Below are positions 2,701 to 19,467 of a stretch of 44,570 bases of DNA, piece by piece. The notes beneath the pieces were generated by a model, which saw only the letters and a list, made by a program, of their open reading frames with translations, did no database searches and was not told the DNA's origin. The stretch is taken from positions 1-44,570 of the forward strand of contig JAJZMD010000157.1 in NCBI GenBank assembly GCA_021803085.1, given 5' to 3'. Made by a program: the position numbers and the translations under genes. Within the stretch, counting starts at the first letter, position 1. Each line of letters opens with the position of its first letter. Source of the stretch: Actinomycetes bacterium (GTDB taxonomy: Bacteria; Actinomycetota; Acidimicrobiia; Acidimicrobiales; RAAP-2).

Positions 2701-5142
2701 TCACGCCTCCTGCGTCGGGCGTGCGCCGTTCGACGGGAGGTGCCGGCGGATCCGGCCGGCGAGGAACGGCACCAAGAGGTTGGCGGTCGCGGGCACGGCG
2801 GCTGCGAGGAGCCGCTCCCTGCGCAGCGCCGACAGGCACTCGCGCGCGCGGGCCCGGTCGCCGAGTCGGGCGAACGCGAGGGCGAATCGGAGGTGGTGCC
2901 AGGCTCGCAATTCCCGGCCACGCGGTCCTGGGAACGGGAGCAGCTCGCGGCGGACGATCTGGAGCACGGCGTCGTGATGGCGTCGCAGGTTCTTCGAGTA
3001 ACCCGTCGCCACGTCCCGGTAGGAGACGAGAGGGGCGTCGAGCTTGATGACCGGGCCGAACCGGGAGAGCCGCAACCACAGGTCCCAGTCCTCCGCACCG
3101 TCGAGCTGGGGTGAGAACCCGCGGGCCAGCGCGAAGGCGTCCCGCCGCATCAGCACGGTCGAGGTCTGGAAGCGATTGAGCACGAGCAGGTCGTCCGTCG
3201 AGATCGACGTCACCGCGAGCTCGGCCGGCAGAGGTGGCGGCCGGCCGCGAACCCAGTCGGACGCGCACAGCACCGCCCGGTGCTCCGCCAGTGCCGCGAC
3301 CTGGCGCTCCAGCTTGCCCTCCTGCCACAGGTCGTCGGCGTCGAGGAAGGCGACGAGCGGCGACGCGGCTGCCGCGACGCCGGCGTTGCGGGCAGCGGAC
3401 GGGCCGAGGCAGGGCTGCTCGACCAGCCGCACCGCCGTGCCGAACGATCGCGCGACGGCGGACGTGCCGTCGGTCGAGCCGTCGTCCACCACGATCACCT
3501 CGTCGGGACGGCGCGTCTGGCCGAGCGCCGAGGAGATGGCTGCGGGCAAGGTGTCCTCCGCGTCGTGCGCAGGGATCACCACGCTGACGCGCAGGTCGTC
3601 GGGCGACGCTCGCCGCTCCTGCCGTGCCGCCAGCGCCAGGCGCGCCGCCACCCGGTCGTCGAAGGGGACCAGGCAGTCGCCGAAGCGCTGGTGCGTCTCG
3701 TGCCCGCGGCCGCTGACGAGGAGCACGTCCCCGGGGCCGAGCGCCTCGACGCCGCGTCGGATGGCCCTCTCCCGGTTCAGCTCGACGCCGACCCGCTCGC
3801 GGCGGGCAGGGGGCACTCCGGCCAGCATCTCGCCGACGATGGTGCTGGGATCCTCCGCACCGGGGCTGTCCGTCGTGAGCACCACGTCGTCCGCCTGGCT
3901 CGCCACCCGGGCCATCTGCGGCCGCTTCGCCGCGTACCGCTCGCCGCGCGCCCCGAGGACGAGACGGACCTTCGCCGTCGACAGTTGCCGGGCCGTGTCC
4001 ACGAGGGCCTCGAGGGCGTCCGGCGTGTGCGCGTAGTCGACCACGACGAGGTACGGCTCGTCGGTGGTCACGATCTCGAAACGCCCCGGCGGCGGCGGGC
4101 AGCGCTCGAGGGCGGCCCTCGCCTGGTCCGCCTCGATCCCGAGCGCCAGGGAGACCAGGTACGCGGCGGCGACGTTCGGGGCGTTGACCGGCCCGATGAG
4201 CGGCGCGGCCAGCTCCACGCGACCGCTGCCGTCGTCGATCACCACGGTGATCCCGGCGAGACCCCTGGAGGTGCACGAGATCCGGAAGTCGGCCGGGCGG
4301 CGCGAGGAGAACGTCGTCACGGGCACTCGGCACGACGCCGCCAAACGCGCCCCCCACTCGCTGTCCACGCAGATCACCGCCTGCTCGCAGCGGGACGGGT
4401 CGAACAGTCGGCTCTTGGCGGCGAAGTACCGCTCCATCGAGCCGTGGTAGTCGAGATGCTCGGGCGAGAGGTTCAAGAAGACCCCGACGCGGAAGCGGGT
4501 GCCGTCGATCCGGTGTCGATCGAGGGCGTGCGAGGTGACTTCCACGGCCGTGCCGACCGCTCCGCCGGCGAGCATCGATGCCAGGTGGCGCTGGAGCTCA
4601 GGGGCCTCGGGAGTGGACAGCGCCGACGTGGCGAGCCGTTTGCCGCCGAGGAAGGTGCCCGTGGTGCCGATCTGCCCCGCCACCCCCGTCGAGCCGGCCA
4701 GGCACGCCTGCAGCAGCTGGCACGTCGTCGTCTTGCCGTTCGTGCCGGTCACCCCGACGACGGTCAGCTGCTCGGACGGCCAGGCGTACACGTGGGCCGC
4801 GATGGGTCCGGCGGCGGCGGCCACCGAGGGGACCCGCAGCTGGGGGACGGCGAGCTCGTCGAGGAACCGCTCGACGACGATCGCCGCGGCACCGCGGCCG
4901 ACGGCGTCGGCGGCGTAGCGGTGCCCGTCGGCATGTGCCCCGGGCACCGCGAGGAACAGGTCGCCCGGCGCGATCCGGCGGCTGTCCGCGCACACCCCCG
5001 TCACGACCGCCTCACCCCGTCGCTCGCACGTGCCCAGCTGCTCGGCAAGAGCCGACAGGGACGTCTCTGGCAGCGATGTGCGCGCCCTCGGGCGAGCGGG
5101 TCGGCCAGCGAGTCCCGTGGCCGCGGGAGTCGACCTCACCAC
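2701..5142 (-). CDS. MurE-like Mur ligase fused to a GT2 family glycosyltransferase
   Basis: One uninterrupted 813-residue frame starts with GTG at 5142 (a second GTG follows at 5139). Residues about 28-505 are a complete MurE-type ligase. They contain the ATP loop GTNGKTTT (133-140), EVTSHAL (201-207), the probable carbamylated lysine in YFAAKSRLF (K243), VVVDYAHTPDALE (367-378), the KRPQM region (406-410) and SGRGHET (477-483). Residues about 518-720 are a GT-A/GT2 domain with SVVIPAHDAEDT (520-531), DDGSTDG (553-559) and the DxD-type DADD (601-604), followed by a helical, Arg-rich C-terminus. MurE normally adds the third amino acid to UDP-MurNAc-dipeptide in the cytoplasm. Here the motif that recognises meso-diaminopimelate (DNPR) reads DSPG (425-428), so the added residue is probably different. 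The gene is not in a dcw cell-wall cluster. Nearby FkbM and GT-C-like genes suggest a surface-glycan role (inference). Confidence 0.88.
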   Translation of the reverse strand: MVRSTPAATGLAGRPARPRARTSLPETSLSALAEQLGTCERRGEAVVTGVCADSRRIAPGDLFLAVPGAHADGHRYAADAVGRGAAAIVVERFLDELAVPQLRVPSVAAAAGPIAAHVYAWPSEQLTVVGVTGTNGKTTTCQLLQACLAGSTGVAGQIGTTGTFLGGKRLATSALSTPEAPELQRHLASMLAGGAVGTAVEVTSHALDRHRIDGTRFRVGVFLNLSPEHLDYHGSMERYFAAKSRLFDPSRCEQAVICVDSEWGARLAASCRVPVTTFSSRRPADFRISCTSRGLAGITVVIDDGSGRVELAAPLIGPVNAPNVAAAYLVSLALGIEADQARAALERCPPPPGRFEIVTTDEPYLVVVDYAHTPDALEALVDTARQLSTAKVRLVLGARGERYAAKRPQMARVASQADDVVLTTDSPGAEDPSTIVGEMLAGVPPARRERVGVELNRERAIRRGVEALGPGDVLLVSGRGHETHQRFGDCLVPFDDRVAARLALAARQERRASPDDLRVSVVIPAHDAEDTLPAAISSALGQTRRPDEVIVVDDGSTDGTSAVARSFGTAVRLVEQPCLGPSAARNAGVAAAASPLVAFLDADDLWQEGKLERQVAALAEHRAVLCASDWVRGRPPPLPAELAVTSISTDDLLVLNRFQTSTVLMRRDAFALARGFSPQLDGAEDWDLWLRLSRFGPVIKLDAPLVSYRDVATGYSKNLRRHHDAVLQIVRRELLPFPGPRGRELRAWHHLRFALAFARLGDRARARECLSALRRERLLAAAVPATANLLVPFLAGRIRRHLPSNGARPTQEA

Positions 5143-5339: not shown

Positions 5340-5880
5340 GCTACGCAGCGGTCGTTCTACGCAGCGGTCGTTCTACGCAGCGGTCGTTCTACGCAGCGGT
5401 CGTTCTACGCAGCGGTCGTTCTACGCAGCGGGAGGTGGCCACCAGCCGTCCATCTAAGGTTGGTGGCCGAGAATGACGTTCGCATGAACGCGCAGCGATT
5501 TCCGCCCCCGACAGGCCCGCTCGATCGCGGACCCATGTCAGACGAGGTCACCGGCTGGGAAAGGGCGGCTTCTATTGCTCCCGCGCACGCCCGCACCGTA
5601 TCCTCGTCGGGCGTGAGCGTCCCCATGACCTCTTCGTGAGGGTCTCCCTGTCACTCGTGCCCTGCCGGCGGGCAGCGCAGCACTCGCGCGGCGGTCGCAC
5701 AGCTCACCGGGCTCCAGCAGCTCCCCGGGCTCACCCGGTTCCAGAGCTCGCTGAGCGTCGGGGCCCCTCGACGGCGATGCCCACCTCCGCGCGGAGGCCC
5801 AACGGCGGCGGATCGAGCGCATGAGCCCGCGAGCACGAGCGCACGAGCAGTCGTGAGCTGCCGCGCCGACGGAGGCACGC
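5143..5880. other. Gene-poor region with tandem repeat
   Basis: I find no convincing gene in these 738 bp apart from the weak leader ORF at the left edge. The region holds the 16-bp tandem repeat at 5341-5430 and a short palindrome, CGTTC-GCAT-GAACG, at 5477-5490. At about 5695-5755 there is a low-complexity stretch in which variants of gctccagcagctccccgg recur. It separates a minus-strand gene from a plus-strand gene, so promoters for both should lie here. Confidence 0.6.
5341..5430. repeat. 16-bp tandem repeat, 5.6 copies
   Basis: The unit ctacgcagcggtcgtt is repeated five times without any mismatch (5341-5420), followed by a 10-bp partial copy. The period is not a multiple of three and the array lies upstream of two divergent genes, so it is not a protein repeat. 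A copy-number-variable locus or a cluster of protein-binding sites are both possible. Confidence 0.95.
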
Positions 5881-17042: not shown

Positions 17043-18416
17043 ATGCCGGCAAGTTCCACTTCCGCGCGAGCGGAGCGCCCGGAGGCGGTTCGCGTCGCGC
17101 TCCTCGGCCACGGCAACGTCGGCGCGGCGGTCGCGGAGCTGCTCACCACGCGCACGGAGGAGATCGCCGCGCGTGCAGGCGTCCAATTCGAGCTCGCGGG
17201 GATCGCGGTGCGCGACCTCCGCCGGCGGCGGGAGGCCCCCGGCGCGGCAGACCCCGCGCTCTACACGGACGACGCCAAGGGCCTCGTCGAGCGCACGGAC
17301 GTCGACGTGGTCGTCGAGCTGATCGGGGGCCTCGATCCGGCTCGCACGCTGGTCGAGGCGGCGCTCCGGGCGGGCAAGCCGGTGGTCACCGCCAACAAGA
17401 TGCTCCTGGCGCAGGCGGGGGTGGAGCTCTCGGAGGTCGCGTCGGCCAACGGCGTCGATCTCCTGTACGAGGCCGCGGTGGGCGGCGCCATCCCGGTCAT
17501 CCGGCCGCTGCGCGAGTCGCTCGCGGGCGAGCGTGTGCTGCGCGTGATGGGGATCGTGAACGGGACGACCAACTACATCCTCACCCGGATGACCGACGAC
17601 GGCATGGACTACGCGGAGGCGCTCGCCGAGGCGCAGGAGCTCGGCCTGGCCGAGCGGGACCCGTCGTCGGACGTGTCGGGCGCCGACGCCGCCGCGAAGG
17701 CGGCGATCCTCGCAGGTCTCGCCTTCGGCAGCGACGTGCTCGGGACGACGGTGGCGCGCGAGGGGATCACCGGCATCCGGTCGCTGGACGTGGAGCACGC
17801 GGCCCGGCTCGGCTACGTCATCAAGCTGCTGGCGATCGCGGAGCTGGTCGACGACGGCCCCGACGTGTCGGTGCGCGTCCATCCTGCGATGGTGCCGGCC
17901 GACCACCCGCTCGCCTCGGTGCGGGGCGCGTTCAACGCCGTTTTCGTGGAGGGCGAGTCTGCGGGCGAGCTCATGCTCTACGGCAGGGGAGCGGGCGGCG
18001 CACCCACCGCGAGCGCCGTGCTCGGAGACCTGATCGACGCCGCGCGGAACCTGCGGGCCGGGGCGCACGCTCCCGCCCCGCGCCGCCACCAGGCCGCCGT
18101 ACGTCCGGTCGACGACCTGCGATCGGCCTTCTACATCAGCCTCGACGTGGTGGACCGTCCCGGGGTGCTCGCGTCGGTCGCGACCGCGTTCGGCACCCAC
18201 GGGGTGTCGATCAGGGCGATGGAGCAGGACGGGCTCGGCACCGCGGCGCGGCTCGTCTTCCTCACGCACTCCGCACGCGAGGGGGACGTGCGGGCGACGC
18301 TGGACGCGCTGGCAGCGATCGACACGGTGGTGCGCGTCGGCTCCGTGCTGCGCGTGATCGGGGCCGACGACGGCGCCCCGATGCGCGTCGCCGGCGGGCA
18401 CGCACGGAGGCGCTGA
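17043..18416 (+). CDS. hom: Homoserine dehydrogenase
   Basis: The protein is 457 residues, typical of the long ACT-containing form. The Rossmann motif is GHGNVG (22-27). The catalytic domain shows [23 protein letters not shown] and [12 protein letters not shown], which bind aspartate semialdehyde and NAD(P). The C-terminal ACT domain (about 360-435, [28 protein letters not shown]) mediates feedback inhibition by threonine in relatives. It reduces aspartate 4-semialdehyde to homoserine, the branch point to threonine and methionine, in the cytoplasm. A -10 box 7 nt before the ATG suggests a leaderless start. thrC follows after 1 bp, so the two form an operon. The gene is divergent from padR. 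Confidence 0.96.
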
Positions 18417-18417
18417 C

Positions 18418-19467
18418 GTGCCGGTCGGCGCCGCCTGGCGCGGCGTCATCGAGGAGTACCGCGAGCTGCTGCCGGTGGACGACGGCACGTCCGTCGTGAC
18501 CCTGCTCGAGGGCGGCACCCCCCTCGTCCCGGCCCCGCGGCTCTCGGCTCGCGTCGGGGCATCGGTGTGGTTGAAGGTCGAGGGGGCCAACCCGACCGGG
18601 TCGTTCAAGGACCGCGGGATGACGCTCGCGATCTCGAAGGCCCTCGCCGAGGGCGCGAAGGCCGTCGTGTGCGCGTCGACGGGCAACACCTCGGCGTCGG
18701 CCGCCGCCTACGCGGCCCGCTCCGGGCTCGACTGCGTCGTCCTCATCCCCGAGGGCTACATCGCCCTGGGCAAGCTCGCGCAGGCCCTCGTCCACGGCGC
18801 CCGCGTCCTGCAGGTGCGCGGCAACTTCGACGACGCGCTCGCGGTCGTGCGCGAGCTCCCGAACAAGGTTCCGGTCACCGTCGTCAACTCGGTCAACCCG
18901 TACCGCCTCGAAGGCCAGAAGACGGCGGCCTTCGAGATCGTCGACGTGCTGGGCCGCGCCCCCGACGTGCAGTGCATGCCGGTCGGGAACGCCGGCAACA
19001 TCACGGCGTACTGGCGCGGGTACCTCGAGTACCGGGCGGCCGGACGGTCGCCCAACGTGCCGAGGCTCCTCGGCTTCCAGGCGGAGGGCGCCGCGCCGAT
19101 CGTCCTCGGCCATCCGGTGGAGCACCCCGAGACGATCGCGACCGCCATCAGGATCGGGAACCCCGCGAGCTGGTACGCCGCGACCGCGGCGGCAGCCGAG
19201 TCCGGGGGAGCGGTGCGCGCGGTGAGCGACGCAGAGATCCTCGATGCCTACCGCATGCTCGCCAGCGAGGAGGCGGTGTTCTGCGAGGCGGCCTCCGCGG
19301 CGGCGGTGGCGGGCATGCTGAAGAGCGAGATCCCACCCGGCTCCACGGTGGTGTGCGTGCTCACCGGCCACGGGTTGAAGGACCCGGACCTTGCGATCAG
19401 CCAGATCTCCGTGCCCTCGGTGGTCGACGCGGACCTCGACGCGGTCCTCGAAGCGCTCGGGCTCTGA
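18418..19467 (+). CDS. thrC: Threonine synthase
   Basis: This 349-residue PLP enzyme of the short actinobacterial type starts with GTG 1 bp after the hom stop. The Schiff-base lysine is K64 in [31 protein letters not shown] follows the family pattern, and the phosphate loop is [15 protein letters not shown]. It converts O-phosphohomoserine to threonine. The usual next gene, thrB, which makes that substrate, is missing. The 434 bp downstream hold no gene, and rho follows. Confidence 0.96.

Follow-up and report, generated by a model that had tools for sequence, protein, structure and literature searches.

A window of 44,570 nucleotides from an Actinomycetes bacterium of the order Acidimicrobiales (contig JAJZMD010000157.1) carries on its reverse strand a single open frame of 813 residues (2701–5142), which joins a MurE-type Mur ligase to a glycosyltransferase of family 2 (GT2). 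The ligase belongs to a side clade of MurE enzymes, for which we coined the name MurE2 in this analysis. Tentatively, and with a little less than even confidence, we read the fused gene as a two-enzyme accessory module of peptidoglycan precursor synthesis, in which another third residue is added and the product is passed to a dedicated GT2.

Residues 47–480 matched the Pfam families Mur_ligase, Mur_ligase_M (138.5 bits) and Mur_ligase_C (91 bits), and residues 520–630 matched Glycos_transf_2 (PF00535) with 109 bits versus a cut-off of 23.3, including a DxD motif (LDADD). The MurE subfamily model TIGR01085 was passed with 419.3 versus 257.3 bits. An earlier note on this DNA had described an in-frame fusion of MurE and GT2, which is borne out by the open frame and by the junction, intact and continuous in the copies of the relatives G008 (96% identical, residues 27–812) and G009 (93% identical, residues 1–813). 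The motifs that it had placed (ATP loop, K243, DSPG, GRGHE and LDADD) were found there or close by. Other proteins with the same domain order, which it had suggested looking for, exist as well: 15 protein clusters of other origin and the fragment P0015, among 120 matches listed, hold both domains in one chain, P0001 and P0016 of these clusters being nearly identical to the copies of G008 and G072. P0004, named Acidimicrobiales, shares 73% identity in the GT2 half. D601, A602, D603 and D604 are invariant in the alignment of fused relatives. The start codon is uncertain, as the gene finder and P0001 both take GTG 5004. An assembly chimera was ruled out by the continuity of the junction in G008, G009 and other protein clusters.

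For a comparison of the ligase part, 49 MurE2 and 63 other MurE sequences were aligned after identical ones had been dropped; the split between both groups had a tree support of 1.0. Six positions are fixed to more than 85% for different residues in the two groups, and three of them (399, 428 and 479) lie in loops forming the pocket for the third residue. The DSPG of the window protein is no chance change: at positions 425–428, MurE2 enzymes read DSPG (37), DNPG (9), DSPC (2) or DSPD (1), whereas the others read DNPR (62) or DNAR (1). Position 428 is thus Arg in 63 of 63 other MurEs and in none of the 49 MurE2 (Gly 46, Cys 2, Asp 1), position 399 is Gly in 63 of 63 DNxR enzymes and Arg in 49 of 49 MurE2, and position 479 is Lys (61) or Arg (2) in the former and Arg in all 48 MurE2 read. 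Asn426 and Asp403, each present in 63 of 63 other MurEs, are replaced by Ser in 40 MurE2 (Asn in 9) and by Tyr in 27 (Asp in 20, Phe in 2), respectively. The residues K137, T177, E201, S204, R211, K243, R402, D425 and E482 are retained in both groups (at least 93% conserved). According to PMC3829189, N and R of DNPR contact the distal carboxyl group of meso-diaminopimelate (meso-DAP), the amino group on the side chain of the third residue is held by the Asp of this motif together with a Glu further on, and the Lys-adding MurE of Staphylococcus aureus has DNPA; the paper also covers the role of lysine carbamylation in MurE.

Judged from these positions, MurE2 appears to keep the amino-group contacts, to lose the known carboxyl contacts and to gain an Arg nearby in the sequence. 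Such a predicted pocket fits a diamino acid without a distal carboxyl group, and the relocated Arg399 could still meet one. The loss of the DNPR Arg, reported by the earlier note for the window, is a trait of the whole clade; the gain of Arg399 had been overlooked, and with it the substrate may still have a distal carboxylate. In a wider tree (62 MurE2, 69 DNPR and 4 other sequences), the 62 MurE2 grouped with ETPG and DDPY types with a support of 1.0. These MurE-like types are ETPG/VAGERD (P0178, P0181, P0187) and DDPY/SAGNRD (P0226, P0233, P0238, named Saccharopolyspora). The fusions of genus g9 (L164–L170) are shorter, about 700 residues, with GRGPE instead of GRGHE and with DSPC in two of them.

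The genome of the window (G000; 4.25 Mb in 296 contigs, 93% complete) contains seven Mur_ligase_M places: MurE, MurE2, MurC, a MurF-like enzyme, MurD, FolC and a MurT-like enzyme. Its division and cell wall (dcw) cluster on contig C285 comprises mraZ, mraW, a transpeptidase gene, murE, a MraY-type gene, ftsW, murG, a Mur ligase gene (murC by position), murB, ftsQ and ftsZ. The murE of this cluster carries DNPR and is 43% identical to the window gene, which sits outside the cluster and is therefore a second copy. This agrees with the specialised second MurE of the earlier note, which had proposed searching the genome for a canonical DNPR enzyme; that the window gene is the sole murE was thereby ruled out. 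The MurF-like gene scores 193 bits (cut-off 289, not reached) and comes after a gene that reads as Ddl-like. On contig C295 (L005, 823–3325), murD (TIGR01087, 255 bits) adjoins an epimerase gene of MurL type that the end of the locus truncates (NF041275, 258 bits for the piece present versus a cut-off of 700), a possible MurD–MurL route to D-Glu.

The link between MurE2 and GT2 extends far beyond the window. In a survey of the family (172 genomes, five candidates scored in each), 22 genomes had a MurE2 with at least 582 bits, the best other MurE reaching 466 bits. Thirteen of the 22 are fused to GT2, six at full length and seven (genus g9) with a shorter and weaker GT2; six others have the GT2 gene next on the same contig, mostly overlapping MurE2. 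In G007 the contig with the GT2 gene starts with the end of MurE2, and the loci of G001 and G012 are interrupted by contig ends. Among family genomes without MurE2, eight gave no match, G162 gave two MurE-like ones and each of the others gave one. In a sample of the class (395 genomes), 16 matches passed 1e-150, namely G000, G167, 12 new MurE2 genomes from four other families and two DNPR enzymes; in all 12 new genomes a GT2 gene lies no more than 1.5 kb away, in five of them on the opposite strand. All family genomes with MurE2 but one (21 of 22; the exception, G023, is 81% complete) and 12 of 12 from the class sample have another MurE, whose motif was DNPR in all 12 family genomes in which it was read. 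Altogether, 39 of 42 MurE2 genomes have a related GT2, either fused to the ligase or beside it, and contig ends cut the remaining three; this upholds the partnership claimed by the earlier note. No GT2 lies next to murE in the 27 DNPR loci read. A parsimony count on the tree, with G001, G007 and G012 entered as same-strand, gave at least six switches between fusion and the arrangements on the same or on opposite strands. Out of 104, the linked GT2s group in a single clade of 53, with one outsider.

Among cultured bacteria, MurE2 is present in Acidimicrobium ferrooxidans, a type species, whose protein P0121 matches L192 of G208, a genome listed in the same order as G000, at 100% identity. The 60 best frames read from a wider survey of at least 80 loci contained no MurE2; 55 showed DNPR by pattern, and of four without a pattern match L081 does have DNPR. 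A sample of the phylum (396 genomes) gave 26 passing matches, 23 besides G000, G208 and G251, and the 17 of these 23 loci that were read (L201–L217) had no MurE2, all being DNPR without GT2. The class of Kitasatospora (394 genomes, three candidates scored in each) yielded a single match, a murE with the DNPR motif whose surroundings resemble a dcw cluster. All 62 records from a plasmid search were below 60% identity. Rhodococcus hoagii (L150, 7890–9392) has an odd MurE-like paralog, not MurE2, with neither DNPR nor the G[KRN]GHE pattern.

MurE2 also occurs in eight of 70 Kitasatospora genomes; P0183 of Kitasatospora viridis and its relatives combine DSPG with CRGGRD. Here the gene is accompanied by MurJ-like genes (8/8), GT2 (7/8) and a MurF-like gene (7/8), the locus without the last two being L256, where the contig ends. 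The NCBIfam cut-off for MurF was passed in six of six clusters tested and that for MurJ in five of six, with 227 versus 235.6 in L250. These genomes have eight or nine Mur_ligase_M places each, so that the usual Mur set is also present. MurF and MurJ in this cluster are the strongest pointer to peptidoglycan precursors. In Kitasatospora viridis (L250, 3063–6848), an RHS-repeat gene with a Cytotoxic domain lies between the GT2 and MurJ genes.

Taken as an accessory precursor module, MurE2 would admit a third residue to its altered pocket, and its product, remaining within the precursor pathway, would go to the adjoining GT2, either directly or via MurF and MraY first. The GT2 would then attach a sugar, either to the peptide or, in a step like that of MurG but with a different sugar, at the lipid-linked stage. 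The Kitasatospora module would have its own MurF and MurJ, while the organism of the window would rely on its housekeeping MurF, MraY and MurJ. The ligase half of this scheme draws on knowledge of the family and on conserved residues, the GT2 half on the linkage and the Kitasatospora cluster; from these we infer the substrate, added residue, sugar, acceptor and a function common to the lineages. Several points speak against this reading. MurF and MurJ were seen as partners in Kitasatospora only; in G000 the single MurJ gene is remote from the window and MurF is elsewhere in the genome; and beyond the MurE2–GT2 pair the neighbourhoods differ between families. The DSR of the UDP-binding domain is lost in the fused relatives P0010, P0011 and L018, and in genus g9 the weaker GT2 part scores 77–131 bits and GRGHE is changed. 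One meso-DAP ligase model, NF001126, was passed (411 versus 373) and the Lys-ligase model NF010628 was missed (267.7 versus 536 bits), although two further meso-DAP models, NF001124 (429 versus 476) and NF001123 (334 versus 586), were missed as well. Finally, Arg399 might replace the lost Arg, so that the added residue may be DAP or another isomer.

MurE2 might accordingly be a second DAP-adding MurE, with Arg399 in place of the DNPR Arg, acting perhaps on LL-DAP or under other conditions, and with GT2 as a separate co-regulated step. We consider this unlikely, even though gain of Arg399 and loss of Arg428 coincide in 49 of 49 MurE2, NF001126 is passed and the other murE of the genome is DNPR: Lys-adding enzymes likewise do without the Arg (PMC3829189), and an unchanged specificity would not require a GT2 partner kept through at least six rearrangements. 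Our boldest extension of the precursor module is doubtful to much the same degree, namely that MurE2 and GT2 run an orthogonal lipid-II-like pathway beside ordinary peptidoglycan, with a separate third residue and second sugar, joined in Kitasatospora by a separate MurF and MurJ, and that the fused GT2 may use UDP-muramyl-peptide as donor.

GT2 enzymes usually take nucleotide-sugar donors. MurE makes a nucleotide sugar which fusion or adjacency would channel, so that the fused GT2 could itself transfer MurNAc-peptide (MurNAc, N-acetylmuramic acid) from the UDP-muramyl-peptide of the ligase to a glycan, lipid or protein and release UDP. Foldseek and VIA-align searches with the GT2 part returned broad GT2 neighbours only (WrtF fucosyltransferase, CgT, AvpGT, TarP), and no donor sugar is therefore proposed; the enzyme may still belong to a family beyond those named, and none of the matched structures gives the donor, which accommodates this idea. 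We nevertheless regard it as improbable, because MurF and MurJ beside the pair in Kitasatospora fit the usual lipid-linked route, and we know of no GT2 that uses UDP-muramyl-peptide as donor.

The earlier note had read the gene as a ligase that perhaps acts on a sugar nucleotide or a lipid-linked glycan, within a small surface-glycan locus. Its divergent neighbours are indeed an FkbM gene (PF05050, 82 bits) and a gene for a GT87-like membrane protein (29 bits), the GT-C partner of that reading, and a DUF2142 membrane protein gene lies upstream of MurE2, overlapping it, in two genomes of another family (f31). However, FkbM and GT87 genes lie near MurE2 in G000 and its close relatives G008 and G009 alone and did not cluster with genes from any other MurE2 neighbourhood in the comparison, the residues thought to bind UDP-MurNAc-dipeptide are mostly kept, and the company of MurJ and MurF in Kitasatospora points to peptidoglycan precursors instead. 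A surface-glycan role thus appears quite improbable, and it is the part of the note that found no support, whereas the fusion, second MurE, Arg loss and GT2 partnership stood. Least probable of all is a modified lipid II or muropeptide made only at times for self-protection or signalling, to which the patchy presence (22/172 family and 8/70 Kitasatospora genomes) and independence from the dcw cluster would be suited, but for which MurE2 has no conserved biosynthetic cluster partner.

As the neighbours vary between families, the MurE2–GT2 pair is the sole general element of these neighbourhoods. The pair adjoins a gene with a VTT domain (DedA type) and cytochrome oxidase genes in eight f26 family genomes (L222–L229, with the neighbours' protein families assigned on L222 and L223 alone), and in several of these genomes argS, lysA and hom lie on the opposite side. 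In the window, hom and thrC are located at 17043–19467. In genus g1, an NlpC/P60-type peptidase gene is divergent from MurE2 (L049, L055, L056; partial in L048). Upstream of the fused gene, the window has a perfect tandem repeat of 16 base pairs in 5.7 copies (5341–5431), which was looked for in the loci of G008, G009 and G032 and is absent there. A sigma-70 promoter scan found none. The features of the fused gene are compiled in Table 1.

Table 1. Positions of the fused MurE2–GT2 gene and its parts in the window
Feature	Position	Strand	Remarks
Fused MurE2–GT2 gene	2701..5142	(-)	813 codons from GTG 5142; alternative start GTG 5004
MurE2 ligase part, residues 47–508	3619..5004	(-)	UDP-binding, ATP-binding and C-terminal Mur domains
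ATP loop TGTNGKTTT, residues 132–140	4723..4749	(-)	conserved in MurE2 and other MurEs
K243	4414..4416	(-)	aligns with the carbamylated lysine of solved MurE enzymes
ARGER, residues 398–402	3937..3951	(-)	new Arg399, retained Arg402
DSPG, residues 425–428	3859..3870	(-)	replaces DNPR; Asp kept, Arg lost
GRGHE, residues 478–482	3697..3711	(-)	Glu482 kept, K479 changed to R
Linker ERRASPDD, residues 509–516	3595..3618	(-)	short, joins both enzymes
GT2 glycosyltransferase part, residues 517–802	2737..3594	(-)	
LDADD metal/nucleotide-sugar motif, residues 600–604	3331..3345	(-)	

The third stem residue and the disaccharide of MurNAc and N-acetylglucosamine are regarded as fixed within a species. 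If our reading is true, some bacteria build two kinds of precursor, using a special-purpose ligase whose pocket is altered, together with its own GT2, and one lineage, Kitasatospora, ties this pair to its own MurF and flippase. Since MurE2 and GT2 stay together in many relatives, the module hints at an unrecognised extra route to cell-wall building blocks, and its presence in Acidimicrobium ferrooxidans and Kitasatospora makes it directly testable.

Compared with the meso-DAP-adding MurE of Escherichia coli (1E8C) and Mycobacterium tuberculosis (2WTZ/2XJA), which have DNPR and GGDR, the window enzyme has DSPG and RGER, is located outside the dcw cluster and is fused to GT2; NCBIfam labels both dcw MurE and MurE2 as meso-DAP ligase. 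The L-Lys-adding MurE of S. aureus (4C12, DNPA) resembles MurE2 in lacking the motif Arg (G428 here) and keeping the Asp and Glu that hold the amino group (D425 and E482). The enzyme of Thermotoga maritima (DDPR), which adds Lys according to PMC9434261, shares GRGHE with the window protein but has Gly at 399, so that Arg399 is missing from the T. maritima, E. coli and M. tuberculosis enzymes alike. A MurE–MurF fusion (8F5D; PRK11929) likewise places MurE and a further envelope enzyme on one polypeptide; its partner is a second Mur ligase and not GT2, and the window protein scores 416 versus a cut-off of 1023.

In the open-licence literature, we found no description of a second murE of this form, of a fusion of MurE with a glycosyltransferase or of murE-murF-murJ in Kitasatospora or Streptomyces. 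MglA, which PMC8092295 presents as a MurG-like lipid II synthase with an accessory role in Kitasatospora and Streptomyces, is like the MurE2 module an accessory precursor enzyme outside the dcw cluster in Streptomycetaceae. It is of the GT28 type (PF03033 and PF04101), whereas here a GT2 is combined with a ligase, and neither PF03033 nor PF04101 is among the six Pfam families of the window protein. The 'second murE' of Streptomycetaceae with DUF1727, of the MurT type (PMC7601586), is also a second Mur ligase annotated as murE; it has about 400 residues, whereas MurE2 has the full MurE architecture and a separate MurT-like gene exists in G000. Of the publications found, those on MglA (PMC8092295) and the DUF1727 'second murE' (PMC7601586) come nearest.
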